From assembly GCA_029582265.1 (NCBI GenBank), contig CM055830.1, positions 29,739,172 through 29,803,171 of the forward strand: a stretch of DNA of 64,000 nucleotides, in the 5' to 3' direction. The translations under genes were made by a program, and so were the position numbers. The notes below the pieces were generated by a model, which was given only the letters and a program-made list of their open reading frames with translations, was not told the origin of the DNA and did not search any database. This DNA is from Zoroaster sp. YZ-2022 (taxonomy: Eukaryota; Echinodermata; Asteroidea; Forcipulatida; Zoroasteridae). Below, in pieces: positions 5,852-32,460 of the stretch (within the stretch, counting starts at the first letter, position 1; each line of letters opens with the position of its first letter).

Positions 5852-5853
5852 AA

Positions 5854-10790: not shown

Positions 10791-10950
10791 TAAGACTTGT
10801 AGCTTTGTATGGTGAAGAGGATAAGTAAGACTATTTGCGGTGACACCATGTGAAATTCTCTATTGAGTAGTAATTAGTTCTGAAAAGAACTAGAGGTTAC
10901 AACTCAACGTTTGATCACTATGCTCTGATTGTCCTCAGGAGTACACAAAT

Positions 10951-11744
10951 ACTGCAGAACAATGCATCATTGTACAGGATTCTGAACCTGTAGCTCAAAT
11001 ATATTCCGCAGAATCGTACCAAATCAGTACGAGCAGGTTAAACAACACATCAAGAGTTTGATTGATCATGGTGACTGAGAGCCATAGTCCTTCCTCTGCA
11101 CCTAGAGCCTTGACCAAGGTGCCTCGGAATGGTTTAGTCGTATAATTTGGCCCTGCTTATAGCTATTCTAACTCCAGCGCACATGCACACAGTGAATATG
11201 TGTGCACGGATCAATAATATGCATGTACATGTATATATGTACATACATGTATGTACAGTGACCATTCGTCGTCATGCCTTGAATCCTTCTGTACTTCTGC
11301 CAAAATTCAAGGTGTGAGCTCATTATGCTAATATACCAAATTAAAAAAACAAAATACATGTTGTCATTGGTTATTGGTTGGCCTAGAAACTGCTCGCTGC
11401 GATGGCAGCCAAACCCCAATTTTGTACCTTGCACTGAGGGATATACATTCAAAGATGCATGCCTTTTTCTTTGCCACTGTTAAGAGCTAGGGTAAATAAT
11501 ATAATTTTTAAGATTTAATCAAGATTGAAGTGATTTATATTTTCTTTTCATAACTTGCACAAGAAGATTTTTTGTTGTATGGGCGTTTTTAAGGGCAAAA
11601 TTTTATGATGGAACATTTTTTGAGAATTGTTTTTTGACATACAATGTACATACGTAGCTGCAGTAGCATAGGTAAAACTCTTCAGATATACATTATCTTG
11701 TCCTTGTCATAACATCAGCGATATTTGGCGACAACTACTACGGA
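10951..11744. other. Interior of the inverted-repeat element
   Basis: No gene recognised. It holds a short alternating palindrome of TACATGTA words near 11221-11262. It is mirrored at about 50740-51535. Confidence 0.5.
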
Positions 11745-12427
11745 TTGAAGGATCTTCTATATCCAAAGTCCACAACCCACCCCAGACTGAGGGATCTTCT
11801 ATATCCAAAGTCCACAACCCACCCCAGACTGAAGGATCTTCTATATCCAAAGTCCACAACCCACCCCAGACTGAAGGATCTTCTATATCCAAAGTCCACA
11901 ACCCACCCCAGACTGAGGGATCTTCTATATCCAAAGTCCACAACCCACCCCAGACTGAGGGATCTTCTATATCCAAAGTCCACAACCCACCCCAGACTGA
12001 GGGATCTTCTATATCCAAAGTCCACAACCCACCCCAGACTGAGGGATCTTCTATATCCAAAGTCCACAACCCACCCCAGACTGAGGGATCTTCTATATCC
12101 AAAGTCCACAACCCACCCCAGACTGAGGGATCTTCTATATCCAAAGTCCACAACCCACCCCAGACTGAGGGATCTTCTATATCCAAAGTCCACAACCCAC
12201 CCCAGACTGAGGGATCTTCTATCCAAAGTCCACAACCCACCCCAGACTGAGGGATCTTCTATATCCAAAGTCCACAACCCACCCCAGACTGAGGGATCTT
12301 CTATATCCAAAGTCCACAACCCACCCCAGACTGAGGGATCTTCTATATCCAAAGTCCACAACCCACCTCAGACTGAAGGATCTTCTATATCCAAAGTCCA
12401 TAACCCACCCCAGACTGAGGGATCTCC
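11745..12427. repeat. 42-bp minisatellite, about 16 copies
   Basis: The unit contains GGATCTTCTATATCC, AAAGTCCACAACCC and ACCCCAGACTGA. Copies are almost identical; one near 12210 lacks two bases. Because 42 is divisible by 3 and the unit lacks stops in several frames, long artificial frames appear on both strands. The right arm has about 10-11 copies at 50283-50735. Confidence 0.95.
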
Positions 12428-12767
12428 TAAGTTAACCACCCTCCTTCCCCCCGTGCTTGTCAACAACTGATTCGGTTCATGTGAGCACTCCTTCCCCCAA
12501 CTCCTAGGATCCTAGTCTCAACGAACTAATCCTCCAGCATCCTGTCATCGCATAATCCTCCAGCAACCTACTTAAGCAGCAGCATTTCCCAGACTCCGGC
12601 ATTCTCCTGAGGAAGATCAGAGCACACTGATCGAAACGTCGAGTTATACCTCCAGTTCTTTTCAGAACTAATTACTACTCATCAATTGAGAATTTCACAT
12701 GGTGTCACCGCAATTAGTCTTACTTATCCTCCTCACCATGCAAAGCTTCAAGTTTTACCTTGTCATA

Positions 12768-13380
12768 ACATGTTTAATTTGCAATAATGTAGGTCTTTTG
12801 TACTTGGGGAAAGTAGTATTTTGTAAAGTCAAGTTAGGGGGGATTTTTTCCTCTGGTAAAGACATGCACACACTTAATTGAGAGTTCGCCATGCTTGACC
12901 AAAAACTGAGGTAGTGAGAGAGTGGAGAACTCTGGAATGACTATTTGAAAGAGGGTGATGTTCCCTTACATGTTCAATTCTTTTTCATAAAAATGCATGA
13001 GAAGTAAAAATTCTTTAAGAAAAAGACACATCCGTTTTACGTCTTACACATATCCATAAAGAATACTGTGTCAAAGAATTAGCAGAATTGAGTAATGTAA
13101 CAAAGTTATATTAAAATAAGTTTTGGAGTGCTCACTTTGGCTCCTGTGGAAGGTACCAAAGTTTAAACAATATCACCATACAAAATGATATCATAAAAAA
13201 TTACTGCAATAAGTCTGCACAGAAGGGTGTGGGAAAGGGAAAAAAATGGGTAATTGCGCAAAGAAACACATTGGGGTAGACATGGTAAGGTAGACGTGGT
13301 AAAAGGGTGTTTTTTTATATGTAGAAACGAGGAAGGGATAAGAGTGTGCTCACAGAGGGAAAGTCAACATCAAGGAACTT
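12768..13380. other. Upstream of gypsy pol, nothing recognised
   Basis: Mirrored at about 49341-49960. It would be the place for gag or protease of the gypsy element, but no retroviral-type zinc knuckle, protease motif or LTR is visible. Confidence 0.4.
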
Positions 13381-14372
13381 TCTTTGTTGACTCAATTTGG
13401 CGATATAAATACCATAAAATATGGTACTTTAGTAAAAGCACACACTACGACAGCCTTGGTCAAGTCAAATGCACCCATTGCACTTGCCAAGAAAAAGGAT
13501 GGTTGCTTTAGAATATGCGTAGATTATCGTCTTAATTTGAAAACACAAAAAAGACGCCTTTCATTTCATTTCTGGATGCTGCAGTTGGTGCTAAGTTGTT
13601 TACATCACTTGATTTGGTGAGTGGGTATCACCAAGTCAGTGCGAGAAGAAGATCGGGAGAAAACAGCCTTTATCACTCACTCCCATGGGATTGTACGAGT
13701 ATATGTACAAATGCCTTTTGGTCTCTGTGGAGCCCCAGCCATAATTCCAACGTTTAATGCAATGGTGTGTTGGTGATATGACCTATCAGCTGTTGTTTGT
13801 GTATTTAGATGACATCTGTATCTATTCTAGAAAGCATGACATGGATTGAAGCTCAAGTCCTCGAAATGCCATTTATTTCACAAAGAGATTCACAGAGATC
13901 ATGGTCATGTTTTATAATAATAATAATGGACACTTATATTGTGTCCATAAGTTTGATGCTGATGGCACATGACATTTTATCAGAGAAAGGTATTTCAACT
14001 GAAGATGCCTTAGTAGGAGTTTGTCAAGGTCATGACCCTAAGTTCTTTCGTTATAGATGGTCACATGAGTGTCAGGAAGTCTTTGAGTCCTTGAAATCAA
14101 ACTTTTCCACTACTCCTGTTTTAGCTTTTGCAGATTTTTCTAGACCATTCACTCTTGATGTACAATAGACGGAAGCCTGTCTGGGCTTGGTGCTGTTTTA
14201 TCCCAAATCCAAGACGGTAGTGAACGTGTAATTGCATATGCTAGTCGTTCCCTTTGAGACAATGAGAAAAGATGGAGAAGTATAGTTCATGGAAATTGGA
14301 ATTACTAGGTCTGAAGTGGGCAGTGACAGATAAGTTTAAAGATTACAGTTTGTTGCACAAAAGGACAACAAT
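13381..14372 (+). pseudogene. Ty3/gypsy-like RT and RNase H fragment, left arm
   Basis: A broken pol fragment. In order there are a KKDGCFRICVDYR block, SLDLVSGYHQV, MPFGLCGAPA and a YLDD palm motif in a shifted frame. RNase H follows with ECQEVFESLK, the TPVLAFADFSRPF motif and an SGLGAVLSQ / VIAYASRSL stretch. A two-base insertion after the GAPA codons and several stops break it, whereas the mirror copy keeps the GAPA-to-YLDD frame open. Integrase lies 3.5 kb downstream because a hAT element and a LINE fragment sit between. No LTRs were found. Confidence 0.85.
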
Positions 14373-14499
14373 GTGTTAAAGTACATGTATAACAATAAAA
14401 CCGTTTACAAATAAATACTAGTACATGTAGGTACATGCATGTATCTCATTTTTTTATCTCTATATTTAATGACCCTAATGGAGATGTTGTGTTTTGTTA

Positions 14500-16830
14500 A
14501 AGATGATAATCAAGTTCCATACGACGCACCGAAATTTGACTAAAAGTGTCAATCACTGAATCAAAGTTAACTTGTTCAGAGAAATCTCGCTCTATGCTTA
14601 GTATGACTAACGAGGAAAGCCTTTCTTCCATCATTGTGGATCTGAGGTAGGTTTGTCAGCTTATAGTCGGCTGAAGATACCGCAATGGTACCCAGTATTC
14701 TGTAAAAAAAGGTCAAGTTTGGAAAGCCGCTATGAATGTCCCATTTCTTAATCATTATGCAACATTTTCTGTACGGTGTTTTGGAGGATCATCTGCAAAT
14801 TCTGGCGTGCTTTTATAGAAGTGACAAAACTGGTTCTACTCTGTTTTGGCAAGGTCAATGTCATCCTCGTACATGTACATAGATGCAAAGTGTTCAAAAC
14901 CCTCAGTATCATATAAATGTCCATTCATAAGACACTTAAAGGGGACTACCATAGTCTGGAAATCACTAAAGCGCGACTGTCCGACTAGTGTATCGTGTAT
15001 CTTGAAGAATACAGTAAACTTATCAACAGGATTTGTTATTGGCTCATCATGAGCCATCTCACCAAGCATGCGTCTGTCTTGAATTCAGTAGACACCACTT
15101 CGATTGTGGCTGTGGCACGTACTTCCTTCAAAATATCATCAAAGACTTTGCTTGATCTTTGCTGTTTCAAATTTTCAATTGCTGAATCTATCAGAGTACT
15201 TGCCATTACAAGATGCAAAGAAGTTTGCTGCAAATACTCAGAAATAGTATTCATTTCGCAAAGAACTTTGAACCAAATGTCAGTCATGATAACAAATTCA
15301 AATTTGCTGAAGAATTCCAGTAAAACCTCCAGCTTCAGCTTTTATTTCTGGGCACGTTTTGTTCTCTACAATATCTTCTAAGGCTAACAGCAGCACAGTG
15401 TACAATGTTTTGAGTGCTTTTACACAATCGTGTCTACAATACCATCTAGTTTCACAAAGGCGTTGTAATTTTGTCTTCTCCATGTTTAACTTTTCTTGAG
15501 CACTTTCTAAGTAAATCAATCGAGGTTGACTTGGAGTAAGAAAAATGTGTACACCTTATGAATAGTACCAAAAAAGTGACTGCTTCGGTACAGTTACCAC
15601 AGACATCTGCAAGAACCAAGTTTAGGTTTTGTGCACAACAATGTACATATAAGGCATTCTTATTCACTTCTTTAACTCTAGTCTGTAACCCAGAAATATG
15701 AGCTCGCACATTAGCAGCACCATCATATGACTGAGATCTTATCAGTTGGATATCAAGCCCTAAATGTGTAAGAGTTTTCTTCAGTGTTAAACAGTGTCTT
15801 AGAATCACTCTCTTGGATACTGAATTGCTCGTCCACATAGTGCAAGCAAAAGGAAAATTGGTCATTATGTGACATATCAATTGTAGAATCCAGTATGACA
15901 CCATAGTAATGCACATTTTTTACTTCACTTATAATCTGTGATCTAACATTTCCTCCCAGTGTGTCAATGAATTCGTTTTGGATATGTGGACTGAGGTAAT
16001 TTGCATTCTTTGGTGCTGTTGCACTATGGTGAGCTAAAATGCCATCATATTTTTCTTAACTTCAAGCGTTGTATTGCTTGCATCATCAGATGAGCAGCTT
16101 CACAATGTGCTGGTGTGTGTTCATGAGTTTTGAATTTGTCCGTTGCCTTTTTCCAAGTGGACTCGTAATCTTTTTTACCTCTGTTGGCAAAACCCCAGCA
16201 TGGGAAACAGTAAGCGCTATTAGTAGTGGATGAATATGTAAGCCATTCACAATATGATTTCATTTTTTTCAGTTGAGGAAAATACCAGTCCCGGCTGAAC
16301 GCTAGCCCCTTTTCATTGCGAACAAACTTGAAAGTGTCATTTAATCCCGGTTTACAAGGTCCATGAGACCATGGAGGTAAAATTCTATTTTTACCTCCAT
16401 GATGAGACAATGTAGTTTCAATAAGCTCAGGAGTAATTGGGCTATTTGTTAACAATGCAGCGTCTGTAGGAAATTCTTTGGTTTTATCTTCATTAGAGAT
16501 ATGCTCCTCCCAGGACATGCGGCTCAATTTCTTCGCTGTCATGGCAAGTGGAAGGCTGGAATGACGTTGCACTATCGCCGATGCCCTCCCGGGTGTCTTG
16601 TACTTTCTGCAGTTTAAAAAGTGATGATTTTTGTCTTGCCATACATTTTTTAAAACTTTTTGGCCTGGGTGTTTGGATTCTGTATGATTTTTCAGTTTGT
16701 CGCGTTGACATTTATGCTTACAATAAGCTCATTCGGCTTGTTCTTTTGTGATGACATCAGTGGTCGATATACATGTAATAGGATGATGTGACTTTACCTT
16801 AAAGTTTATTCTTCTCATGTAGGGCTAAAG
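14500..16830 (-). pseudogene. hAT-family transposase (TTF zinc finger / DUF4371 type), left arm
   Basis: Several frames together cover a hAT transposase. Near its start (about 16690-16640) is a C-x2-C...H finger. Next come a TTF-type zinc finger (GLAFSRDWYF, CFPCWGF, H/C residues, about 16330-16060) and a DUF4371-like core (about 15970-15530, including LDIQLIRSQSYDGAANV). The C-terminal dimerisation segment has ERLSSLVILSIERDF near 14640-14520. Stops and frameshifts separate the blocks, so it is dead. It is opposite in orientation to the gypsy pol it interrupts. The mirrored copy has the same layout, so the insertion predates the arm duplication. Confidence 0.85.
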
Positions 16831-17379
16831 CTGTTTACACTACGGTACCATTGGTATGTCTACTGCTTGTCACCAGCTCGTGATTTGTAGTCTCGTCCTT
16901 AATGGTGCAGTTGGATTTGATTATGCTCACTCGTCACTCCATACATTTATGTTAGCAATTGAGCCCCATGCAGTCTGGGACTGAGACTACAGCATTTGGA
17001 GAGTAGGCCTACATGTCAGACCTAATGTCAGACCTAATGTCAGACCTAACCAGGAAGGCGCTCGGCCAGTGAAATGCCAAAATTATCAAACTCGACCCCA
17101 TCCCTAGCTGTGACTTACCAGTAGATGGTTCATATTCACCAACCAATCCCTGCATAGGTAGATTTGACACTGATTCAACAATGTGCTCTTAAAGAGGAAA
17201 TAGAGAATCGGATTAGTAAACTGGCAGATTGTCAGATTCTTGGGCCAGCAATTGAAAATGCTTTGTCACTTGCTTTCTGAAAAGTGCATAGAATATTAAA
17301 TGTACCACGAGACTCTAAACCACCCTCGATCTTGGGCATGAGATCAATTGCATTAGATATAAGTAGGGAATAGATTGGA
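16831..17379. other. Spacer with a short tandem repeat
   Basis: Three copies of a ~12-base GTCAGACCTAAT unit near 17012-17048, mirrored near 45674-45710. Otherwise unassigned; the left part may include the hAT terminus. Confidence 0.5.
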
Positions 17380-17640
17380 TTTAACATTATACATGTTTAT
17401 GGCTGTTTTATACATTAGTTGGAAGCCAGTGAAGCTTTATGATGAATGGTGAAGTGTGTAACTGCTTTAGATAAGAGAATTTGACATTGGAAGCTTTTAA
17501 TAATTGTTTTGGAGTTTCTGTAATCTATGAATATCAGATTGTTTCAGTCTATTGAGAACTGAACTGAACAATAATCTAATCTTGAAAGTAACGATCGCGA
17601 GGCTCTAATAGAAGCATGACAGGTGTCAGCATCTACATGT
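17380..17640 (-). pseudogene. LINE RT C-terminal fragment, left arm
   Basis: The minus strand encodes pieces of the thumb/C-terminal region of a CR1/jockey-type RT: SRLDYCNS (damaged by a four-base insertion), RLQKLQN and LHWLP. The best-preserved version is the third copy at 54860-55046. It is one of two insertions separating gypsy RNase H from integrase. Confidence 0.65.
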
Positions 17641-17929
17641 ATGTACTTTCGGATTCAGCTGATGTTGCAGATATAATGATTGGCTGATCTGCAAACAGTA
17701 GTGATATGATTGCTCATTGTCATTGTAGAGTCAAAGACAAAGCCAAGATTTCGAAGTGATGAAGGTTTTCAAATTAAACGTTTCTCTTTGATGAATGGCG
17801 TACTTCATAGGAAAGTCAAAGATCCAAAGTAGGGAAGCTTGACTCAAATTGTATTGCCTTCATCTTTAAAGCCCAACCATCCTCACATTAAGTCTACATG
17901 ACTAGTTTGGTCATCGGGGTATAGAAAGA

Positions 17930-18790
17930 ACTCTCTCTTTAGTTCATTCCTACTGCTATTGGCCTAGTATGTATGCTGACATTAAAAAGTAGATTGGGAA
18001 TTGTGAGCAGTGTGCAGTTGCTAAACTTCCTAGACCTGCAGTCAGAAACCCTCTTGGTCAATTGGTTGCAAGTAATCCTTTGAATGTCATAGCCATTGAC
18101 AGTACGCTTTTAGAGTCTACTTCTGACAGAACAGAGAATGTTCTTGTGATTACTGATGAAGTTCACTATTGCCATACCAACAAAGGATCACACTGCTAAA
18201 ACAATAACATCTGTTTTTGTTAAAGACTGGTTTTTAAAGTATACTGTACCTGTAAAAAATTCATTCAGATCAGGAAGACTATTTGAGTCTAATTTATTTT
18301 CTCATCTCTGTATTAATACAACATAAATAAATCTCACACAACAGCATACCACCCTCAAGTGAATGCTCAATGTGAAAGATTTATTAGGACAATTTTGTGG
18401 AAACTTTCAGCAAAGTATTGTTGGTCTAGGTTTCTTCCTGAGATGACTTATGCATATAAATTCTACACCACATTCATCAGAATGTTTCTCTTACGGCCAA
18501 CGAAGATTGCAAAAAGCCTATCAACTTGCAATGTCTAAAAATCAACAGCAGCTAATTAGGAGAATAGCAGATTTATGATCGTAAAGCAAATCCTAACATC
18601 GGAGATCATTTTTATATGCGTAACCATGCCAGGGGTTGGAATAAGATCCAATATAGTTATCTTCCAGATAAATATCTGATTGTTGGTAAACCAGATCCCA
18701 ATAATTTTGTTTACATGGTTAAATTGGCAGAGGGAGGTGATACAGAAAGACTGTTAATTCTCTTGAGCTAAAGTTGGTCTCTACATGTCT
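17930..18790 (+). pseudogene. Ty3/gypsy-like integrase fragment, left arm
   Basis: Parts of a retroelement integrase: a CxxC zinc pair (CEQCAVAKLPRP), the first core Asp in NVIAIDSTLLES, and the HTTAYHPQVNAQCERF motif around the third acidic residue. Stops and frameshifts are frequent. It should be contiguous with 13381-14372 but is displaced by later insertions. Confidence 0.8.
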
Positions 18791-18964
18791 CGTAAATGCT
18801 AAGCTCATTATTGAGTCTGTTTGTCAACGAAGTACAACAAATCATTCTTCACTGATTCCAATTCCAGTTCGGAATATGACTTTGATATTGATATTGAGAA
18901 ATATAAGTTACCATCCTTTAGGCGATTACAACGAAAGGAAAACATAAAAACCCTTTCCGAGAAC

Positions 18965-19855
18965 TTCAGGTGTGAAATGCACACAAAAGAAAAAGATTAA
19001 AAAATCAGAGTTAGGTAGTGGTCCTTGGACCAGACAAAAGATGGATTACACATGAATAGATAGAGGTACTAGGAGTTTTTGGCTGGAAGAAAAGATAGAT
19101 TAGCAAAAAAGCAGAGACAGACGGGAATAAACAAAGCAGACAGATAGACTATACCATCAAAATAAAAGTAAAAGAATGTAAAAATAAATGTAAAAAATTC
19201 TGTGGAGAAGAAAATGAATCATCATTAGTCATTCCCTTCCTATATGTTGAGACCATGGGTGTGGTGTTGATACGCGGGATCCACATCTTTTTACTGATGA
19301 GACGGACCAATTCCCTGCGGTTACCAAGCACTCAATACCCTTCAAAATCATGTCAGAAATGAAATCATTAGGTAGATTGAAGTGCTGGCCCACCTTTATA
19401 TTCACTTGGTAACTGCAGGAAGTCGGTCCATCTCAGCAGAGAAACGATGTGGTGCAGGTGTATCCACACCATTCACCCCCATGGTCTCAACATACAGGAA
19501 GGGAATGACTAATTTTCTATTTTTCTTTCTCAACAATCTATATCCATGTCTTTACATTTGTTTGCTTGTTAGTCTATTTGTCTGTTTTTTTTATACTCTC
19601 CCTGTCTGACCCCTTCATTTTCACTCATCTTTTGCTTTGTTCTTTCAGCCAAGAACTCCTTTAATCCCTCTTTTGTCCGATCTTAGGACCACAACCTGAC
19701 TCTGCTTTTTGTACCTTTTTCTTTTGTGTTCATTTTACATGTGACTAACTTCTGTTCACTCTTGCGTTTATGTATGTTGTTTGTATTCCGTCCCATTTTG
19801 CCTTTGAGAAAGAACCTGCTATTTTCGAAACGTAAGGCCAATATCCATTATTTTG
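18965..19855. repeat. Foldback element, left arm
   Basis: Sequence at 18965-19330 is the imperfect reverse complement of 19385-19790, with the axis near 19360. Shared landmarks are ACACAAAAGAAAAAG, GGACAAAAGA, CATGGTCTCAACATA and GGGAATGACTAA. The right edge ends CGAAACGTAAGGCC. The mirrored copy is 42843-43750. Confidence 0.75.
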
Positions 19856-19950
19856 CAATTTCTTTAATACTCGGGTGATTGTAACCAGCCAGACTTCAGG
19901 GTATGCAGCCAGGCACTTGTAGATATAAATTATGTAATTCTTTGTAAATT
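19856..19950. repeat. Single copy of the 80-bp unit that is amplified in the right arm
   Basis: One monomer next to the foldback edge, with GTAACCAGCCAGACTTC, GGGTATGCAGCCAGGC and TTGTAGATATAAATTATG. The right arm carries about 40 copies at the mirrored position (39591-42842). Confidence 0.9.
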
Positions 19951-21781
19951 GCACCCGTACTTGAGATTTTGGTATAACATGTCCATACAGCGCCCTCTTT
20001 AGTTTGAAGTTAACCATGCGCTACATGTCATGTGGTATGTAGTCAAATTTGCACAAAGCATTCAATTTAAAAGCCTTTTTTTTATCCCAATGTAAGTTAT
20101 GTAAGCTGCGATAGATTTTGCGCATTCCAGTAGTTTACATGTTGAGATAGCAAGCATGTGGTGGTCATTTCCAACTTCCACTGTTGCAGCCAACACATCA
20201 ATTTTTCGAGCATTTTGTATCGCCAGAAAAAAAGTTGTTCTTGTCCCTCGTCTTCAGAGTTTGGGCATCTCATCATGAGGCATGAGCTGCAAGGAAACTA
20301 CTGGTAAGTTCTCGCAACTGAATTTTAATGGATATTTATTGTTTATTCACAAAAGACCAAGGTCAACACTCTAATTGTATAAAATCCTGACTAGAGATTG
20401 ACTAATTTTGCATTTTCACAGCATGTATTTAGAGCCAGATACTTTTAGAGACACATAAAATAATCATATAACAGAATGTATCCTAACCATTTATCTATTA
20501 GAAAAATTAGAGATATTGAGCAATATCGGAAAAGTGCCTGTTCTTTTGGGCAGCCCTTTAAATTTTACCCTTACGTTAATGAATTCTGTAATAAATAAGA
20601 ATTGAATAATCTGATGAGCAAGGAGAGAAGGAAATAATGTAAAATACAACTGCAACTTTTATGTCCAAATATGACAAAATATCACAGATTTTCATTTAAA
20701 AGATGATCGAGGATACACTTATTTAATAAGGAGAGGGAAGTGTATAGTCAAGTGAGGAATGGAAATGAAATTTTGGACATGGTGAGCACTATATAGGCCT
20801 ATGCAAATCCAGTGAGATACTGGCATTTTTGTCGTCTGCCCAAAACACAATGTTTAGGGTTCGACATTCTTTCCGAAGTGAATAATCTAAGCAAGGTGTA
20901 TAAAATAATAAGTGAATAATTTGAGCAAGTTTTATAAAGAGTTGAAACTGGGAATAATGAAGATTTTCATGCATTGTAGATTGTAGATATTTGTAACAGA
21001 TTGCAATATTTCGAATATGGATCACTTCATTATTTTAACTTGGAATCTTTCGTTATATTTTAGGTCAAAAGTGCAATGATGTAATGACTGTCGTTTTGAC
21101 GGTAGTATAGTAGTGTGATTTATACTGAATAAACCAGAACTATAAAACTCATATTTTGTTTCCAAGAAGATCTTTGTCAGTTGTGTACCTTCAATCTTAC
21201 ACCTTCGTTACAAGAAATAAAGTAGAAACGATATTTTTGTTTTGATCATCCCCATATAATCAGGGAGGGGGCACACAACATTTCAAAGTTCTGTTACATT
21301 TTTGTCTAATCAAGTTATGTAGTAGATCCTGTGGACGCTCAAATGTTTAAGCCCCAATATGCATGAACTATGCAGAGTTCATCAAATCAATTGAAATGTT
21401 TGATAAATTAAAAAGATAATTTGACATAATTTTGATTATTTCATGTGCTGGATATCATTTTGATGATGCTGTAACGATATGTTCAAAAACAAACATAAAA
21501 CCTCAAAAAGAAACAGAAATTCCCGTTTCCCATGCCCATTCAAATCTGTATACAAATAAGTGATAAGGCTTCCCCTTGGCTCGTGAGTGTATATATAGGT
21601 CGATATATAGTGCGGTGACGAGAGAATAGAGTATTCCCATCAGGTTTTATTTTTCATCATTTTAAAATTCCGATATTCGTTTCAATAAATTTCATACCCT
21701 AAATATTCATCAAAACCAGACCGAACCGAACTAAACCAATATACAGCAATCCGTAGATATCTGATCCTTCTATTTGTACAG
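19951..21781. other. Non-coding sequence upstream of FA58C exon, left arm
   Basis: Mirrored at 37762-39590 with high similarity. No further exon, RNA gene or transposon recognised. It ends in a polypyrimidine-like stretch and TTTGTACAG splice acceptor. Confidence 0.5.
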
Positions 21782-21975
21782 GTGCCTGGTGTGCAGGGGA
21801 CATATATCAGAACCAGTGGATTCGTGTGGACCTGGAGGAGTCAGTTACAGTCACTGGCATCATCACACAAGGGCGTGCCGATTATTGGGAATGGACAAAG
21901 TCATATAAAATAAAGTACGGTGACAACGAGGGTGATTTGATCTACGTGACTGGAGCCGATGGGTTACCATTGGAG
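21782..21975 (+). CDS. Discoidin / F5/8 type C (FA58C) domain exon, left arm
   Basis: An internal exon of 194 bases between TTTGTACAG and GTAAGG. The first two bases complete a split codon, and 64 full codons follow. The product matches the first part of an FA58C (discoidin) domain: an AWCAG start, NQWIRVDLEESVTVTGIITQG (split here only by function), then WTKSYKIKYGDN and IYVTGADGLPLE. FA58C domains are secreted or cell-surface modules that bind glycans, lipids or proteins through loops. Compared with the right-arm exon, all differences fall in three patches (codons about 1-9, 33-38 and 52-56), all replacing amino acids. No neighbouring exon is visible, so the gene may be partial or a stranded exon copy. 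The domain call is confident; expression is unknown. Confidence 0.75.
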
Positions 21976-22253
21976 GTAAGGTCCTATCAAGATGACATAC
22001 TTGCACTGTTGTCATATTTTACCTCGAATCAATATACTATAGCAAATGAGACCCATGGTTATTATTCACATAGTGCTACGTTAAATGTACTAACTCATAA
22101 TAGACATGGTATAGTTCTTACGCAATACAAAATGTCAAGTCTTAAATAAAATGTATAAGTTTCTATACCTGAAATCATTATTAATGTATAAAATACACAA
22201 ATAAGAAAATAAGAAATCTCCAAAATAAAGAAACAAAGTGAACAAAAAGTTTA
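21976..22253. other. Intron sequence after FA58C exon, left arm
   Basis: Starts with the GTAAGG donor. It differs from the mirrored right-arm intron (about 37300-37567) by scattered single bases and small indels only. Open frames that run from the exon into it are read-through. Confidence 0.6.
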
Positions 22254-22995
22254 AACAACGTCATGTAGGATCATCCACCTATTATGGGTATAAGGGCGGG
22301 CAACAACGTCATGTAGGATCATCCACCTATTATGGGTAAGGGCGGGCAACAACGTCATGTAGGATCATCCACCTATTATGGGTAAGGGCGGGCACCAACG
22401 TCATGTAGGATCATCCACCTATTATGGGTAAGGGCAGGGCAACAACGTCATGTTGTATCATCCACCTATTATGGGTAGGGGCGGGCAACAACGTCATGTT
22501 GGATCATACACCTTTTATGGGTAAGGGCGGGCAACAACGTCATGTAGGATCATCCACCTATTATGGGTAAGGGCGGGCAACAACGTCATGTAGGATCATC
22601 CACCTATTATGGGTAAGGGCGGGCAACAACGTCATGTAGGATCATCCACCTAATTATGGGTAAGGGCGGGCAACAACGTCATGTAGGATCATCCACCTAT
22701 TATGGGTAGGGGCGGGCAACAACGTCATGTAGGATCATCCACCTGTTATGGGTAGGGGCGGGCAACAACGTCATGTAGGATCATCCACCTGTTATGGGTA
22801 GGGGCGGGCAACAACGTCATGAAAGATCATCCACCTGTTATGGGTAGGGGCGGGCAACAACGTCATGTAGGATCATCCACCTGTTATGGGTAAGGGCGGG
22901 CAACAACGTCATGTAGGATCATCCACCTGTTATGGGTAGGGGCGGGCAACAACGTCATGTAGGATCATCCACCTATTATGGGTAGGGGCAGGGGC
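22254..22995. repeat. 46-bp minisatellite, about 16 copies, left arm only
   Basis: The unit contains CAACAACGTCATGTAGG, ATCATCCACCTATTATGGG and TAAGGGCGGG, with A/G and T/C variants grouped by neighbours. The right arm has just about one unit at 37256-37290. Confidence 0.95.
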
Positions 22996-23019
22996 ACGGG
23001 CACACATAATTTCAAATTT

Positions 23020-23093
23020 CCCTTGTCGGCGCCTTTGAATGGCTTCTAGATTAAGTGTGCCTTACAAATGATTTATTATTATTATTATTATTA
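23020..23093 (+). mobile_element. Retroposon 3' tail remnant with (TTA)n
   Basis: GGCGCCTTTGAATGGC...GTGTGCCTTACAAATG followed by TTA repeats resembles the tail of LINE/SINE elements seen at 9500-9597 and 61200-61275. Mirrored at about 37160-37240. Confidence 0.5.
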
Positions 23094-23378
23094 ATATGTT
23101 TGAAGGGGGAAAATGACCAATGTCAATATGTCCAATATGTTATTCCTGTTATTATAAATTATGACATGATTTTATTATCTGTATTTAGCTGTTGCAGCAG
23201 ATCAAATCAATTTCCCTGAATAATCCAAGCTTCAAAAGTCAACAGTAATTCTACGTTCGCACAACCATTGAGAAATAATTTGCAAAAACTACCGAGACAG
23301 TTTCGGTACATGTTGATCAAACCCTGTCTTAAAAAGAAATAAACCCTCTGATAACATCATAGCATATATTATTTTATA

Positions 23379-23779
23379 TAAGCTTGGGTGATAACACGAT
23401 AATATCGAATATCGCGATACCTTTTTTATTCGATTACGATATCGAGAACCTTTTTAAGTTATCAAGATATCAGCAAATCGCGATTAAAAAAATATATCGC
23501 GATTAAAAACAAATCGCCATTGTGAGTCAAGTCAGAAATTCCATGGAAACAAAATTAGAACAGTCTTTTTAGCTTTTGGACGTGAGAAACAAAGGCGAAC
23601 TACCGGTACTTCAGAAGTACATACACACTCTGCAAACGAATTTGTGATTTATTGTGACGCTTGTAGAGGGGTATATACCTGTGGTTATCAGCTCTAAAGC
23701 AATAATCGCGGTATTATCGAAAATCGCGATATATGTTTGCCGATATATCGTGGATGAAAAAAATCGATATCGCCCAAGC

Positions 23780-23782
<3 letters not shown>
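23379..23782. mobile_element. MITE with ATCGATAT-rich ends, left arm (intact)
   Basis: Terminal inverted sequence TAAGCTTGGGTGATA at the left and TATCGCCCAAGCTTA at the right. Subterminal ATATCGCGAT-type words form many small palindromes. Flanking TA is consistent with a Tc1/mariner-like target, but the superfamily is not proven. The right-arm copy is split by another element, and this copy preserves the empty site at 23441-23448. Confidence 0.75.
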
Positions 23783-23815
<33 letters not shown>

Positions 23816-24999
23816 GTTTTTACTGTTAACATATATTACCACTTCCCGCCCTCCGCGAGTAAGGTTATGTAGCTCATTTCAATAGTCTTGGGTTTTAGCA
23901 CATCATCTTTACTTTCGCTTGTTTTGTTTCCCTTGACTTCTCACCTATTTATACCCCTTTTAAATAATTCCGAAGTGATATTTTCGTGTGCGGTACTCCT
24001 ACGAACGCAATTGTAAACATTTTGACCTTTTTGGAAATGTTTTAACAAATTTATTTAATTTTATTTCACCTACACTAGGCGCCTACTAACAGAATTTCAT
24101 TTTAATCAAGAAAAATGCAAGTTTAATTGTTGGCACACCCATATCGAATGACGATGATTCATCAATGAGAAGTAATCTGAATTTCCTCTGTTCTTTCCCC
24201 CGAACTGAATAACAGTGCCGCCAACTGGATCCCAAGTGAGGACCCAAGTGCGAAGCCACCCCCTCCACCAACACCCGATTAGAAACCACAATGAAAAGTT
24301 CCCCAAACAAACACAGCAAACAGCTGAGAGGAATACAAATTTGGCGGCACCCGCTAAGGGCCTATTGCCAGAGAATAAGTAATAGAAATTTAGTAATCAC
24401 ATTAACATAGATTAAAATAAATAAAAAATCTTAAAGATATCATTGCACAAAACACTCTATCGGACCCAACACAGGTTCCACTGACCCTGTCCCTGTCCCT
24501 GTCCCTGTCCCAAACTCGGACCCAAGTGCGAAGCCACCCCCTTTTCCCACAGACACCCCAATCAAATACCCCAGTGAAATGTTCCCCAAACAAACACAAC
24601 AAATCCAAAAGGAACTATAAAAGAAATACGAATCCCATCAGGCCCCAACCAAGACCCCATAGATTAGCCCCCAATTAGAGAGCACATTTACATGGAAAAA
24701 GCACACAACTAACTTTATACCCTCCCAGAATTAACCATAAATTAAAACCTCAGTCTTAGAAATTTAAACTAGCAAAAGTAGAAGGCATGAAGGAATATTT
24801 AATTAACGAGGGAAGCTCATTAAATAAGTCTACTTACCGAGACATGAATTTACGTTTGCCAGATTCAGTTTTAACTTCAGGAGGAAGTAGGTTACCATGG
24901 GAACATGCCCTAGTATTAAGAGTGACTATTTGCAGCTGGAATAAAAATATTACACATTGAGGGGCAATTTGGAGACGAGACTTTGTACAACAATGAAGT
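23783..24999. other. Non-coding sequence with a partial internal duplication
   Basis: About 24200-24330 and 24500-24610 are related (both with CCCAAGTGCGAAGCCACCCCC and TTCCCCAAACAAACAC). A short GTCCCT repeat lies at 24486-24512. The first part is mirrored at 34629-35050; the rest has been lost from the right arm. Confidence 0.5.
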
Positions 25000-25009
25000 T
25001 AGGGTGATA

Positions 25010-25385
25010 AGTGCGCCGTGAACTTAGCGTTTGCCACCCCAAAGTAGAGATAACAGAATAGTGGGTTATCTCCGGAGGAGATCTAGAATTTTTTTACTAG
25101 CAGTATTTTGTAGTGTCTAGTTTGGTGAGGCAGTTTGGATGAGTTAACCCATACAGTATCACAGTAGTCAAATTGTGGCAGGAGCATCGTTTTATATAAC
25201 ATATTCAATGTGTGCTGAGGTAGAACACTGACCCTCAGGAGAACCCCCAAACCTTTGTTGACATTTTTCACAAGCTATCAATATGCACATTCCAAGGTAG
25301 TTGCAAGATGAATCTAACCATACACCAAGATATTTAAATTGGAGTAACATTATCGATGACAATATTTCTGTTCATAACGTAAAGA
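25010..25385 (-). pseudogene. LINE RT fragment, left arm
   Basis: The minus strand reads through RT thumb landmarks: MNRNIVIDN, FKYLGVWLDS-like, WNVHID, LVKNVNKGLGVLLRV-like and QFDYCDTVW. Frames are broken. The same element, with more of its N-terminal side including the palm, is at 34026-34628 in the right arm. Confidence 0.75.
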
Positions 25386-25569
25386 TTTTACCTGCTCAAT
25401 GATGTGGTGTGTAGAGTTATTTACAGCAGCTTTGGGGTCTTGTGTGTAAACCAAACAAGCGTTTTACACACAAGACCCGCAAACAATAGGTAATTCAGCT
25501 GTATTGCAAGCATCGTGTAGGCCTATATATATATATATATACATAGGAGTAATCACTTGGTGACTATCA

Positions 25570-25616
25570 GTTGTCTGATGATCGCATAACGCGTGAAACT
25601 CGGCGTGAGTTACAAC
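25570..25616 (+). ncRNA. Candidate type I hammerhead ribozyme
   Basis: The conserved CUGAUGA (25575-25581) and GAAA (25595-25598) boxes are correctly placed among three stems. Stem I is GTTGT (25570-25574) with ACAAC (25612-25616). Stem II is CGC (25583-25585) with GCG (25591-25593), closed by a U-U mismatch next to the core. Stem III is ACTC (25598-25601) with GAGT (25607-25610), with a five-base loop. The predicted cleavage triplet is GTT (25609-25611). An open stem I with a short stem III is the form known from Penelope-like elements and metazoan retrozymes. Weak points are the mismatch in stem II and U instead of C or A at the cleavage position. Confidence 0.5.
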
Positions 25617-25714
25617 CACCAGCGTTCCACTAGTTCCAATTTACTACACATAGTATAATACGCTCTGTCTATGTGGCATTGAGCACTTACTTCAAGATAG
25701 ACTGCTACATTTAA

Positions 25715-25715
<1 letters not shown>

Positions 25716-25801
<86 letters not shown>
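25716..25801. repeat. (TA)n microsatellite
   Basis: Near-perfect alternating TA, interrupted once by AGCATATA. Confidence 0.95.
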
Positions 25802-25805
<4 letters not shown>

Positions 25806-25814
25806 TTTTATTAA

Positions 25815-26270
25815 TACGTTTTTTCTGACTACAAAATTAATTCAGAAGCAACGTCCCGTGTGAGTGTGTGTGTGTGGGGAAGCATTGCTTTACGGCACTT
25901 AGAACCTCAGTCGGCAAAATGAAAGGTACTAGAATAAGGGTTGGTCAACAATAAATTTGCAGTCGTCAAAAGTAGAGCTATGGGTTTTGCTGGCTGCAAA
26001 TGTTGTCATATTTCTAAGCACTGAAGATTTGCCGAGTTTTACTCACGGACAGAGCTACGGTTTTCCAGTTTTGGGTGGCAGTCCCACCCCCCACCCTCCA
26101 TTTTAGGGGGGAAAAAAAATGCCTGGTCATATTAGTGTTGTGTCGGTAAATTCACCCACTCTGAAAATCCTGGCTACGTCAGTCAGAAAATTGGATTCCA
26201 CACCCCAAAGAAAATGCTCGCTACGCCCCTGAATTGTTAGTAGGTCTGTACAATCTTGCTGTACTTGCAT
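25815..26270 (-). mobile_element. Insertion inside Tx1-like LINE, left arm
   Basis: Mirrored at 28090-28545. One end has GGGGCGTAGCGA-type sequence, a terminus style of non-autonomous hAT elements. It separates two RT blocks of the surrounding LINE in both arms, so it was present before the arms were copied. The other terminus and the target duplication could not be fixed. Confidence 0.45.
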
Positions 26271-26547
26271 AGTTGGACGGAGCGGACAACCATACATGAC
26301 ATTATAAACATTATATTGGTTACCTGACGCTACTTTTGACAGTTTACCATACATTGTTTTGATCCAGCTTTACACAAACATCTGACCAAACTTCTTTTTT
26401 TTTCAGTGTTTCAAATAAAACTCCCATTAACCGTATCAAAAGCACTAATTTCATAATTAAACAAAAGACAACAAAGAAAACAAAACAAAACAGAGTTGCA
26501 GTGGTTTTTATTATATTGTTTTGACTAAAATGAATAACATTTTTATT
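26271..26547 (-). pseudogene. Tx1/L1-like LINE RT fragment, left inner edge
   Basis: Reverse complement of 27841-28085. It carries the AFDTVN region and a WIKTMYG-like block in broken frames, and stops at the N run. Confidence 0.65.
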
Positions 26548-27047
26548 NNNNNNNNNNNNNNNNNNNNNNNNNNNNNNNNNNNNNNNNNNNNNNNNNNNNN
26601 NNNNNNNNNNNNNNNNNNNNNNNNNNNNNNNNNNNNNNNNNNNNNNNNNNNNNNNNNNNNNNNNNNNNNNNNNNNNNNNNNNNNNNNNNNNNNNNNNNNN
26701 NNNNNNNNNNNNNNNNNNNNNNNNNNNNNNNNNNNNNNNNNNNNNNNNNNNNNNNNNNNNNNNNNNNNNNNNNNNNNNNNNNNNNNNNNNNNNNNNNNNN
26801 NNNNNNNNNNNNNNNNNNNNNNNNNNNNNNNNNNNNNNNNNNNNNNNNNNNNNNNNNNNNNNNNNNNNNNNNNNNNNNNNNNNNNNNNNNNNNNNNNNNN
26901 NNNNNNNNNNNNNNNNNNNNNNNNNNNNNNNNNNNNNNNNNNNNNNNNNNNNNNNNNNNNNNNNNNNNNNNNNNNNNNNNNNNNNNNNNNNNNNNNNNNN
27001 NNNNNNNNNNNNNNNNNNNNNNNNNNNNNNNNNNNNNNNNNNNNNNN
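26548..27047. other. Assembly gap, 500 N
   Basis: Exactly 500 Ns, a round size that suggests a placeholder and not a measured length. It sits at the inner end of the left arm, so the join at the axis of the inverted repeat is not sequence-proven. Confidence 0.99.
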
Positions 27048-27229: not shown

Positions 27230-28089
27230 GCTCAAGGTGTTTTTTTGGCACAAAGATCCTAATGACATACTCAACAGTAAAGATGTTCTGAGCAGAATAT
27301 ATTCTTCGTCCACCCTTTGCTGGCACAATTCACAGATCCTAATGACATACTCAACGAAGTAAATATGTTCTATGACAGAATATATTCTTCTAAATCACCC
27401 TCTGTAGCGCAGTTATAAACCTGTTTAAATGAAACCACCTTTGATTTTACTCTCAATGACGAAAAAAGGAAAATATGTGAATGAATGATTACTGAAGAAG
27501 AATATAAACATGTACTGGAATTGTTAACAACAACAAAAGTCCAGGCACGGACGGTTTTACAGTAGAATTTTACAGAGAGTTTTGGGGAAATATAAAATAA
27601 CTATTTATTCAATCGATGGATAGAAGCTTTTAAAAAAGGCGAATTATCAGTATCGCAATTCAGAGTACTTATATCTCTATTATATATAAAAAAGCGATCG
27701 AACAAGTTTGAAGAATTGGAGACCAATAAGTTTACTAAATATAGACTATACAAAATAACATCTCACTAAAGTCATAGGGGACATAATCCAAGATGACTAG
27801 TCAGGTTACATACAAAGCAGATTAACAATATTAAACTCGGTAATGTTATTCATTTTAGTCAAAACAATAATAAAACCACTGCAACTCTGTTTTGTTTTGT
27901 TTTGTTTGTTTCTTTGTTGTCTTTTATTTAGATTATGAAAAGTGCTTTTGATACGGTTAATGGGAGTTTTTATTTGAAACACTGAAAAAAAAAAGGTTTT
28001 GGTCAGATGTTTATTAACTGGATCAAAACAATGTATGGAAACATCCAAAGTAGCGTTAGTAACAATGTTTATAATGTCTGTTTATAGTT
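27230..28089 (+). pseudogene. Tx1/L1-like LINE, linker and RT N-terminal part
   Basis: The plus strand shows PNDILN and MFYDRIYSSKSPS linker sequence, partly duplicated in tandem (about 27250-27315 and 27330-27395). GTDGFTVEFYREFWGNIK and a VLISLLYIKK-like stretch follow, then the AFDTVN catalytic region and NWIKTMYGN. Many stops and indels. The element continues at 28662 and 30300 after insertions. Confidence 0.75.
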
Positions 28090-28661
28090 GTCCGCTCACG
28101 TCAACTATATGCAAGTTGTACAGACCTACTAAACATTCAGGGGCGTAGCGAAGGCATTTTTGGGGGGGTGTGGAAGCCAATTTTCTGACTGACGTAGCCA
28201 GGATTTTCAGAGTGGGTGAATTTACCGACACAACACTAACATGACCAGGCATTTGCTTTTTCCTAAAATGGAGGGGGGTGGGGCCGGGGGGACTGCCACC
28301 CAAAACTGGAAAACCGTAGCTCTTCCGGCAAATCTTCAGTGCTTAGAAATATGATACATTTGCAGCCAGCAAAACCCATAGCTCTACTTTTGCCGACTGC
28401 AAATTTATTGTTGACCAACCCTTATTCTAGTACCTTTCATTTGCCGACTGAGGTTCTAAGTGCCGGCTTAATGCTCCCCTCCCCCCCCCCCCCACCACAC
28501 ACACACAGGAATTGCTTCTGAATTAATTTTGTAGTCTTTTTTTTATGAACATGTTAAAAAACCTAGTCTTGAACTCGGTACGTTATTTTTGCAATGCGAG
28601 AGTTCTAACCACTTCTAACTATCATGCAACTCAGTTGATATGGTGAAAAACCTTTTCTAAA
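28090..28661 (+). mobile_element. Insertion inside Tx1-like LINE, right arm
   Basis: Counterpart of 25815-26270 up to about 28545; the remainder is right-arm-specific. It contains a C-run followed by CA repeats near 28480-28508. LINE coding sequence resumes at 28662. Confidence 0.45.
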
Positions 28662-28880
28662 TTAGATTTCTATGCCAATTTCTAAACCCTTTGACGAAGT
28701 GCTGGGTATGCTGCAGAAAAATAGCTGTCCGCTCCCTGCTATTCTTGTTCTATTTGTTGCAGAAGTCCTTGCAAATAAGATGAGAACAAACCCAGACATT
28801 TGCGGTATCGAATTGGCTAACCACAACACAAATCTTCGCATTTCCATGTATGCAGACGACACATTAATTTTGTCAGACAT
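28662..28880 (+). pseudogene. Tx1/L1-like LINE RT palm (YADD)
   Basis: One open frame with a NSCPLPAILVLFVAEVLANK block (the usual GCPLS region), then LRISMYADDTLILSD holding the YADD catalytic motif. It is followed immediately by a T-run that belongs to another, opposite LINE inserted right after this motif. Confidence 0.85.
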
Positions 28881-30290
28881 TTATTTTTTTTTTTTTTTTT
28901 AGCTGTTTTATTTATACAGGGTAACCTTATCAGTTACAAACTGCTTTCCATGAGGGCCCTGATTCAAATGATATAACAAATTCCATAACTTATGAACATA
29001 ACTTATTATAAAATCAAAACTAAAACAATTTAAGTTATTAGCACTGTAGATATTAAAATACAAAGCAAAATGTTCTAAAATGAATAAAATGTAAAATATG
29101 AATTTAAAACTTATGAATTTAAAACTTAAAACTCCGAAGGGGAAGGGGACCAAAGAATGAATAATACACTTAAAATAAGTTTAAAAGAAGAATATTGGAT
29201 ACAGAAAAGAACAATACAATTACAATAAGATAAAAGAACAGTATGTAAGAAAATGTGTATTAAGAATGTAGAATACAAGGAAAAGGGCGGAAAAATAATT
29301 AAAATTAGCCTTTAAAATACAGGACTAGCTGGACAAGTGATTAAATCAAAATTAATATGAAAGAGAAACCACTCTATATAAACAAAGATGACAACAGGAA
29401 TATTACAATTTGTATACAAAATAAATTTGAAGCAGAGATAAAATTATTAATAATTAAAACAGAAATGTCATAAAACGCGTTAATCAACAAAGAAAAGATT
29501 TGAATTTATTAAGTGACTCTGCCTGTTTCTGGGCCGTGGTAAGTTTGTTCCATCCCAGGGTTCCAAGGTACTGAAAAGTGCGCCTTGCAGCATTTGTCTT
29601 GGGAATAATTGACAGATGTAATAGCCGTTTGTCTTGGCGCGAGTATTAGCAGAGTGACATGGTTTATCAAAGCGAGAACTTAGATATGCTGGACTCAGGC
29701 TATTCACACATTTATAAACTTCACACATCTTCTGTGATTTTCCCAACGGGCCAGCAAAGGTAACCACGCATAGTGCCCGTTGTAATTCATCAGATGTGAG
29801 TTCTAGGATGAGCGTTAAGGATTAATCTGGCCAAACGATTGTGCAATTTAAGGAGTTTGTCTGAGTAGCAGTGTGCACAACCTGACCAGGCAACATCGCA
29901 ATAGTCAAACAAGGGCAATATCATGGCACTGCTCAACATTTAAACGTCGCACTAGGAAGGCAGGGCTTAGCAGATCGTCATAAAATCCCATTTTCATAGA
30001 TATTTTCTTGGCAGTAAAATCAATGTGGTCAGACCAAGACATATGCTCATCAAGGATAACCCCGAGATATTTATACAGCTGAACTCGTTCGATGGACGTA
30101 TCATTTAATGTGATCTGCACCTGAGAAAAAGTAGGTAGCCTTGGGCGAGAACCAAATATCATAAATTTTGTTTTACTCACATTAAGCGTCAGTTTATGGT
30201 TCACCAACCATTTAGTTACTTGATTAAGGCCATTCACCATGTCAGATTCGATGGTATCGGGGGTTGTACCATCAAACATTATCAATCATT
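28881..30290 (-). mobile_element. 5'-truncated LINE with poly(A) tail, inserted in the Tx1-like LINE
   Basis: On the minus strand, RT C-terminal sequence (30285-29905: KTKFMIFGSRP, YKYLGVILDEHMSWSDHI) leads to the end of the protein (29767-29480: MCEVYKCVNSLSPAYL, then a PWDGTNLP-like block). An AT-rich 3' UTR follows, and a terminal T-run at 28881-28901 is the poly(A) tail. CR1/jockey-like by these motifs. It lies between the Tx1 YADD block and its thumb, proving insertion order. Confidence 0.8.
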
Positions 30291-30299
30291 ATCAAACAT

Positions 30300-31650
30300 T
30301 ATCAATTCAATAAAAAATAATCGCTAGAAAGTGAAGCAAACTTTGGAAAAATTGTAGGGCCAAAACTGAACCTTCAAAAATCAAAAGGTCTTATTATAGG
30401 AAATACAGATCTCAACCAGCACCTACTTGAAATAATTGATTGGCAACAAGAGCCTCTTAAGACATTAGGTGTTTAGTTTTCGAAAAATATGAACGAGTGT
30501 TATGAACATGTCTGGGAAGAAAAAAATTACTAATTTCAGGAATATAATTAATCAGTGGAAAAGAAGGAACCTCACCTTACCATTTTTACCTTTTTAGGGT
30601 CCGTCATTCCCATGGCAAACATCACGTTTTTAATACAGATAAACAAACTTATTCTCTCTTTTATATGGAACGGTACAATAGACAACATATCTCGTAAAAC
30701 AATTATCCGTAAACTCAACGAAGGTGGCTTCAACTTAATAGACATTGAAATACACACTTTGGCTCTAAAATCAATTGGGTTGTTATATTTGCTCAACAAT
30801 CCCATAGAAAAATGGACAAGCTTTTGTGATTATTTACAGTTATATGGACGTATATTTAATTCTCAATACAAGCGAGAACACAGTGAAGTGTCAACAAATA
30901 AATATTGATGACTTGCCTCATTTTATAGGGAACTGATATTTTGTTGGTATAAACTTAATTCAACACGTATTCAGGAAAAACAATATTTACATGCTGCTGA
31001 AATAAAATCACTAACTATTTAGGGGTAATGACATTAACTTTAATTTTAAAAAAAGTATTTGTATTTTAGCAATTGGATTAAATCTAACATTTTTCTGTAG
31101 AAAACATAAAAAACAAACTTACTTTAAAACGTAATTGGATTGTTGAAATGTGTGTATTAAGAAGAGCCATTCCAAAGGAATGGTTTCCAATTATTCTGAC
31201 TGAAACAGAAAATATTGATGTTACACCAAATGTGTACCTCAATTCATATATAGTTGTATTATCCAATTTAACAAAATATATATATATTATTAGACAAGAA
31301 AGGAAAAACACCAATTGTACAAGAACGATGGGAACAAATAATTCAAGAAAGACCAAACTGGAATTTGGTTGGGAGAAAAAAAATCAAGATATAAAAGAAG
31401 TAAAATAAGAGATTTTAATGTCAAATTTATGTACCAAAGATTGCCTACTCATCAATGGAAATTAAAATAATCTCCGATGTGCTCCTATGTGTAATGTTAT
31501 CGATGAGTACCAACACGCATTTTGCGGTTTGTGAACCCACACAACAGAATGTTGTAACCATTTCCCCCATTTCTGTCACCGATTATCAAATCAGACCGAT
31601 TATGAAATTCAACCGTCATCAATGATTGACATAGTAACAGCAGGTCCATA
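30300..31650 (+). pseudogene. Tx1/L1-like LINE RT thumb and C-terminal region
   Basis: Continues the element cut at 28880. Visible are FGKIVGPKLNLQKSKGLIIG, then SVIPMANITFLIQINKLILSF with IWNGT and EGGFNLIDIE (a typical L1/Tx1 thumb), then RRAIPKEWFPI and cysteine/histidine-rich C-terminal scraps near 31480-31570. Several frameshifts. Confidence 0.75.
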
Positions 31651-32129
31651 TACTGACACTATCAACACAATTGTTACTCTTGCTTTATTTTGTATTTTTA
31701 AAGCAAAGGTTAATAACTTACAATGATAATAAATGGATAGACATTTTGAAATTTTTCAAAAAGAAATATCATGCAGAGCACAAAAAGGAATAATCTTTGG
31801 TGTCATAAGTTTTACGGAAAATATTACTTTGTATAAAAAGCTACAAAGGAAACAATTAATAATAATCTGATGTATGTTTTTGTGGTACACATGTTGAAAT
31901 ATAATGGGAAAGGGCGGCTTCATAAAATCATATAGAAAACGTGAAATAAGTACGGACATGTAAACGGCAAACAGTTCAATATTCTGAGAGATTACAAGTG
32001 TAACCTCAAAAGGTTTCATAAGAGAAGAAAGAAAGGATCTCAGACAATGCCTTTCAAACATTGTATTTTAAATAAGGCTTTATTGTGTTATAAACACACC
32101 GCTAAGTTCTGTTTCTAATACTTCTAATG
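31651..32129. other. Unassigned AT-rich sequence
   Basis: No gene or repeat recognised; it may be LINE 3' UTR. Confidence 0.4.
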
Positions 32130-32395
32130 TACACTCACTGGCCATAAGTATTGCAACATTGAAATTCACACCAAAGTTCAGTTTGGAGAACTGTGTTACA
32201 ATAATTTATTTTATTTTATTTTCACTATATACTTAAGACTTCTTGACAGTGCCTTTATTTTGACGTCAATGTTCTTTTTTACTGTTCTTACTATATGTAA
32301 TACACGATCGATGAAATCGGATTAAACGATCATCTCACCTGTTACTGTAAAGTGCTATTTTGAGCATGTTGCAATACTTTTGGCCAGTGAATGTA
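32130..32395. mobile_element. Tc1/mariner-like MITE
   Basis: The ends are inverted: TACACTCACTGGCCATAAGT continuing ATTGCAACAT at the left, and the complement TACATTCACTGGCCAAAAGT continuing ATTGCAACAT at the right, 28 of 30 matching. TA at each outer end fits the mariner target. The interior has no coding capacity. Right arm only. Confidence 0.85.
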
Positions 32396-32460
32396 TATAT
32401 AAAGCTGGGTAAAATACCAAATTGTCAAACAGGAAGTTTGTTAATGTTTTCTGCATAGGC

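Follow-up and report, generated by a model that had tools for sequence, protein, structure and literature searches.

Discoidin (FA58C) exons of the Zoroaster genome form a family whose copies differ from one another chiefly in a few loop codons and mostly through substitutions that replace the amino acid, and this loop-centered diversification on the discoidin fold is real and family-wide. What we observed comprises the family itself, the positions of its variable sites, a bias toward replacement, the lack of any stop codon in 52 copies and, within one of two clades, a decoupling of loop divergence from intron divergence. We consider it probable that these exons belong to a germline discoidin family of recognition type, whose ligand-pole loops diversify under very strong positive selection together with some exchange of tracts. 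The encoded proteins may bind variable partners, be they foreign, self or gamete ligands, and the main driver is more probably selection than a dedicated mutator.

The exon pair and its genomic setting

The stretch of DNA analyzed here, the window, comprises 64,000 nucleotides (C15:29739172-29803171) from a genome of 1.0 Gb in 616 contigs. It holds two copies of exon B, the middle exon of a three-exon FA58C domain (A-B-C), with WL in the left and WR in the right arm of an inverted duplication (Table 1). An earlier note, made from the letters of this DNA, had identified both as FA58C exons, and Pfam agrees, the two scoring 43.5 and 50.4 bits with PF00754, for which the cut-off is 28.2. With WR alone used as query, the best solved-structure matches were factor V and neuropilin-1; amongst named proteins, the closest is lactadherin-like and comes from Acanthaster planci.

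The comparison of the two exons reported in that note was reproduced almost entirely. Each exon is 194 bp long, has ag and gt borders and runs from phase 1 to phase 0, and between WL and the reverse complement of WR we count 29 substitutions and no indels, confined to 17 of 64 codons, with all 17 replacing, none silent, and the other 47 codons free of any base difference. The adjoining intron, described earlier as changed by a few percent, differs at 6 of 147 positions on the 5′ side and 2 of 105 on the 3′ side. Three clusters are present as described, but they occupy codons 1-9, 31-36 and 49-53, the latter two having been placed at ~33-38 and ~52-56. Changes fall at codon positions 1, 2 and 3 in 12, 13 and 4 cases, and comprise 8 transitions and 21 transversions. 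When 29 random substitutions were simulated, zero silent codons occurred in 0.3-0.8% of runs, and 17 or fewer codons were hit in 0 of 20,000 simulations at each of two settings. The lack of silent change in the framework of this pair is unremarkable taken alone, as 31 silent sites would all stay unchanged with P = 0.39 if divergence were 3%. That WL and WR might be an isolated pair was ruled out, as the same pattern recurs family-wide in 52 copies.

Table 1 Positions in the window of the two exon B copies, their patches and the surrounding duplication
Feature	Coordinates	Strand	Basis or remark
WL, FA58C exon B, left copy	21782..21975	+	phase 1 to 0; splice sites, reading frame, Pfam
WR, FA58C exon B, right copy	37568..37761	-	splice sites, reading frame, Pfam
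WL patch 1, codons 1-9 (core of family hypervariability 5-7), loop before strand beta2	21784..21810	+	pair and family comparison, model
WL patch 2, codons 31-36, beta3-beta4 loop (L4 / spike 3)	21874..21891	+	pair and family comparison, model
WL patch 3, codons 49-53, beta4-beta5 hairpin, mildly variable family-wide	21928..21942	+	pair and family comparison, model
WR patch 1	37733..37759	-	pair comparison
WR patch 2	37652..37669	-	pair comparison
WR patch 3	37601..37615	-	pair comparison
Inverted duplication, left arm with WL	6894..26541	+	homology broken by insertions
Inverted duplication, right arm with WR	27842..53310	-	arm alignment
500-N assembly gap separating the arms	26548..27047	.	read from sequence
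46-bp minisatellite, ~16 units, ~280 bp 3′ of the WL exon	22254..22989	+	repeat scan

Divergence between the arms varies by aligned block, from 0.9% at 12-20 kb to 4.4% at 19.8-22.3 kb, where the exon is included, with values of 1.5-8.0% in blocks closer to the 500-N gap. The right arm is without an array of the 46-bp minisatellite, and such arrays are present in the related loci L085 and L088; an 80-bp minisatellite has ~40 units in the right arm (39587-42849) versus about one unit in the left (19841-19947). Frames at 7789-9069, 13809-14168 and 16045-16572 resemble proteins of what we take to be retroelements and DNA transposons. Two tRNA-like matches, one by Rfam and one by ARAGORN, lie at different sites (53826-53899 and 60906-60990).

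WL and WR may be paralogues, or they may represent one locus in two haplotypes. The latter, with an inverted join at the gap, is a possibility that we take seriously without leaning toward it, and it is compatible with every reading of the loops weighed below. The arms meet at the gap, and runs of 500 N are what certain Hi-C scaffolders put between joined pieces; arm divergence of 0.9-8% could be allelic; and inverted homology is seen again beyond the window, at 84-89% between 5845-7200 and C15 sequence past 64000. This outer match may be a repeat, however, and the loop pattern is equal in copies on other chromosomes, so that a join of haplotypes leaves the central observation unexplained.

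Copies across the genome and the three-exon module

A genome search for PF00754 matches, in which 150 of 746 candidates were scored, yielded at least 52 exon B copies, a lower bound. For comparison we fetched 56 matches of exon B type picked by eye together with the 8 best; B-like matches outside this sample include several on C7, C12, C14 and C16. From 84 exon matches, 18 with less than 60% identity were set aside as other subfamilies, and with WL and WR added there were 68 exons, of which 16 were duplicates (14 repeated loci and 2 locus pairs identical over the first 180 bases), leaving 52. The two pairs whose exon B is identical across 180 bases, L064/L065 and L075/L076, are distinct loci; both pairs are on C1, one inverted ~2 kb apart and the other 25 Mb apart. 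Most copies lie on C4, and others on C1, C5, C7, C10, C13, C15, C17 and C22. Assigned by the start of the 3′ intron, 29 copies belong to clade 1, the window type, and 23 to clade 2. All 52 have an AG acceptor, and all have a GT donor except one, which has GC; a count from the DNA found stops, one kind of counterevidence named in the earlier note, in none of the 52. The exon B at 4913 of L033 carries an in-frame 18-base tandem duplication, so that DWFYVT appears twice. Related loci sought in viral contigs, in prokaryote genome contigs and by a phage search gave nothing usable, and a protein search with a padded query gave no match.

In the module, exon A (CRDPLGMES..., spike 1) lies upstream of B and exon C (FQGN...LLGCRG) downstream. 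Scored alone against PF00754, one exon C reached 19.7 bits and one exon A gave no match; cysteines stand near the domain ends in all 14 exon C translations and in all but one of the 10 from exon A, every one of these translations coming from copies other than the window's. Locus L045 contains parts of two modules in tandem, and tandem exon A pairs, ~130-145 bases apart, occur at L037 (9534-9777) and L038 (2121-2378). An HYR-like piece adjoining the L037 module scored 20.8 bits, slightly below the cut-off of 21.7, and a second such piece, from L046, gave no HYR match.

Around WL and WR, neither exon A nor exon C was found in the 64-kb window and 6 kb past each end, a weak exon A match at 53877-53957 (E 0.056) being taken as chance. 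Amongst 22 long-flank loci (20 with 10 kb, plus WL and WR), exon C was at most 5 kb away in 11 of 12 clade 2 versus 2 of 10 clade 1 loci (Fisher P = 0.0015), and exon A was nearby in 5 of 12 versus 2 of 10. At L085-L088, clade 1 loci with 3 kb of sequence that stand outside these counts, neither partner was found, and at L031 exon A was absent across 12.9 kb upstream. WL and WR look like lone B exons inside an inverted duplication, and many window-type copies may lie outside complete genes; at the window, the missing A and C exons would follow from any one of giant introns, the gap in the sequence, or orphan cassettes. If WL-type exons are orphans, selection at those loci could not have made their loop pattern, and this possible orphan status is our strongest reason for keeping exchange and mutagenesis in consideration.

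Position, codon make-up and tempo of the variation

Entropy across the 52 copies is highest at exon B codons 5-7 and 31-36, with 2.2-3.5 bits; none of the 55 other codons exceeds 1.74 bits (codon 18), and 31 of them have less than 0.5. Patch 3, codons 49-53, has 0.24-1.34 bits, no more than some framework codons, and the idea of three equal binding loops is ruled out by this mild variability. The 14 exon C copies are hypervariable at codons 32-34 and differ also in the first base of codon 7; in exon A (10 copies, one truncated) variation lies after SVSS and includes length changes.

We located these positions on a model of Acanthaster P0004 with a mean pLDDT of 79. In it, loops between strands hold codons 5-7 of exon B as well as codons 32-34 of exon C; the loop at codons 31-36 includes isolated bridge residues, and codons 49-53 lie in the hairpin that follows. 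In the alignment to neuropilin-1 b1 via P0004, exon B codon 3 stands opposite T316 and codon 7 opposite D320, and the loop with S346, T349 and Y353 is the one in which codons 31-36 lie; all five are amongst the neuropilin-1 b1 ligand residues given in PMC8945599, their numbering having been placed on the alignment by hand. For DDR domains, PMC4332414 describes a ligand pole of loops L1-L3, L4 and L6, and the beta4-beta5 hairpin (codons 49-53) lies outside the top loops given there. The hypervariable codons of exons B and C thus appear to coincide with loops on the ligand pole of the neuropilin and DDR domains, L1-L4 and L6 having been placed by alignment and model secondary structure. The earlier suggestion that the patches are binding loops would fit two of them, both hypervariable across the 52 copies and both matched by alignment to loops of the ligand pole, but not the mildly variable hairpin at codons 49-53.

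Parsimony assigned 134 replacing and 6 silent steps to codons 31-34 (14.1 versus 2.4 per site), compared with 233 and 92 in the framework (1.8 versus 2.6 per site); over all nine loop codons the rates were 14.1 replacing and 6.0 silent steps per site. Path-averaged over all pairs, pN and pS were 0.515 and 0.125 at codons 31-34, 0.093 and 0.121 in the framework, and 0.608 and 0.493 at codons 5, 7, 35 and 36, where the replacement excess is weaker. Both measures lend support to the strong diversifying selection that had been proposed for the patches. Amongst 44 clade 1 pairs with introns less than 3% apart (mean 0.020), codons 31-34 had a pS of 0.141 and codons 5, 7, 35 and 36 one of 0.517, and framework pS was 0.055 versus 0.020 in the introns. 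Codons 31-34 look young and changed by replacement only, and the other clade 1 loop codons, and less so the whole exon, exceed the introns in silent change. This raised silent change comes in part from path counting in multiply hit codons and may in part reflect imported or older tracts.

Codon make-up at codons 31-34 is peculiar in its third base, which is T in 48, C in 52, T in 50 and T in 47 of 52 copies, and each of these codons encodes 8 to 11 amino acids with a diversity of 0.38-0.74 at positions 1-2; in codons 5, 7, 35 and 36 the third base varies along with the first two. NNR codons account for 4 of 208 at codons 31-34, compared with setting means of 7-39% in star-like simulations favoring any amino-acid change, and 3 of 20 simulation settings had some run with zero NNR codons. 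Replacing steps at the third base numbered 3 versus 15 expected under free replacement, in a binomial that takes parsimony steps as independent. The scarcity of NNR codons reflects either a restricted choice of amino acids, which antibody loops also show, or mutation aimed at positions 1-2.

The relation of loop to intron divergence, for which 1282 of 1326 exon B pairs were binned (44 pairs lay above 0.5), differs between the clades. In clade 1, mean loop divergence is 0.45-0.51 in all intron bins from 0.7% to 27%, with single pairs differing at 1 to 21 of 27 loop bases. In the four closest clade 1 pairs the loops differ by 0.45 and the introns by 0.007, and the changed loop codons comprise 27 replacing and 1 silent, so silent change in the patches, which the earlier note had likewise named as counterevidence, does occur across the family. 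Between WR and L073 there are 2 differences in 252 adjoining intron positions and 10 in 27 loop bases; over ~1.9 kb, exon included, they are 2.9% different, and the nearest introns therefore understate the wider divergence. The clade 1 loci L052 and L068 differ at one loop base, with 9 of 247 intron differences. We know of no case of ordinary selection with a contrast between replacement and neutral change as high as that in clade 1. In clade 2, loop divergence is 3.7% at 1.8% intron divergence and climbs to 42% at 15%, and 20 pairs with less than 10% intron divergence show 0 silent versus 51 replacing codons; this rise with intron divergence is what stepwise positive selection predicts. Loop and framework distances are correlated in clade 2 (Mantel, P = 0.0045 and 0 of 2000) and not significantly so in clade 1 (P = 0.07 and 0.13).

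Sources of the loop diversity and known systems

If positive selection is the main driver, as we favor, the barrel framework would be kept while three-exon FA58C modules dispersed in the germline as a large family. The exon B loops (beta3-beta4 and the last part of the beta1-beta2 connection) and the exon C beta7-beta8 loop would diversify by replacement, exchange of short tracts among copies would add to loop diversity, and each copy would probably show a different binding surface. Weighing against this reading are the height of the clade 1 contrast, the raised silent change in clade 1 loops, the scarcity of partner exons at clade 1 loci, the few third-base replacing steps at codons 31-34, and the pairs that barely differ or are identical over 180 bases. 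Exchange might instead be the chief source of loop differences between close copies, with patchy gene conversion taking short loop tracts from a large donor pool, which strikes us as rather unlikely. Single cases bear out the patchy conversion raised in the earlier note: L053 and L054 are identical in patch 1 and different in patch 2, with introns differing at 1 of 238 positions, and patch 2 is identical in L068 and L074, which belong to different clades. A wider contribution is possible, given that silent change in clade 1 loops is raised above that of framework and introns, and the excess of framework over intron (0.055 versus 0.020) also fits imported tracts. Yet 41 of 52 patch 1 and 48 of 52 patch 2 sequences are distinct, which leaves few donors among the sampled copies, themselves an incomplete sample.

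Targeted mutagenesis, in which a mutator or template-directed rewriting alters positions 1-2 of NNY loop codons, much as a diversity-generating retroelement would, and selection only clears broken results, appears very unlikely to us. It would account for the almost fixed third base beside diverse positions 1-2 at codons 31-34, for the 4 NNR codons in 208, for the nonsignificant loop-framework correlation in clade 1, for loop divergence that is saturated already at less than 1% intron divergence, and for the numerous clade 1 exons with no partner exons nearby. However, amino-acid selection against K, E, Q, M and W would yield an equal NNY bias, zero-NNR runs arose in 3 of 20 simulation settings, codons 5, 7, 35 and 36 are variable at every position, and clade 2 moves by single replacing steps. 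Less credible still is that the genome keeps lone discoidin exons as a scattered library and that targeted, stop-avoiding mutation rewrites positions 1-2 of their loop codons, which would amount to a germline repertoire resembling antibody loops. Least probable of all is that the loops are ancient and held by selection while conversion homogenized introns and framework: the decoupling of loop from intron divergence in clade 1 and the higher level of silent change seen at codons 5, 7, 35 and 36 would suit it, but third bases are near-uniform at codons 31-34 in 52 copies, and conversion could hardly homogenize one base beside diverse positions.

The puzzle posed by the family is that introns less than 1% apart flank loops in which nearly half of the bases differ, almost all of them replacing. 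With at least 52 natural loop variants on a fold of well-mapped ligand loops, it is a candidate for a hypervariable recognition system. Framework motifs and, judging by alignment and model, probably also the ligand-contact loops are common to this exon family and to neuropilin b1, DDR DS and factor V C2; those, however, are conserved receptors or factors, whereas here many copies in the same genome differ in their loops. Among the matches listed in the literature on variable discoidin families, none was recognized as the exon B family. Large, diversified invertebrate families tied to immunity, such as sea urchin Sp185/333 and snail FREP, offer a likeness; their proteins are unrelated to the discoidin exon family, and by comparison the variation described here is concentrated in loop codons of the discoidin fold. 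Oyster bindin, whose F-lectin repeats form a jelly-roll domain under positive selection, is similar in these two respects and differs in being an F-type lectin. Diversity-generating retroelements vary NNY-like codons at positions 1-2 on a fixed scaffold; in contrast, the host here is an animal, and the variation also fits selection or exchange.
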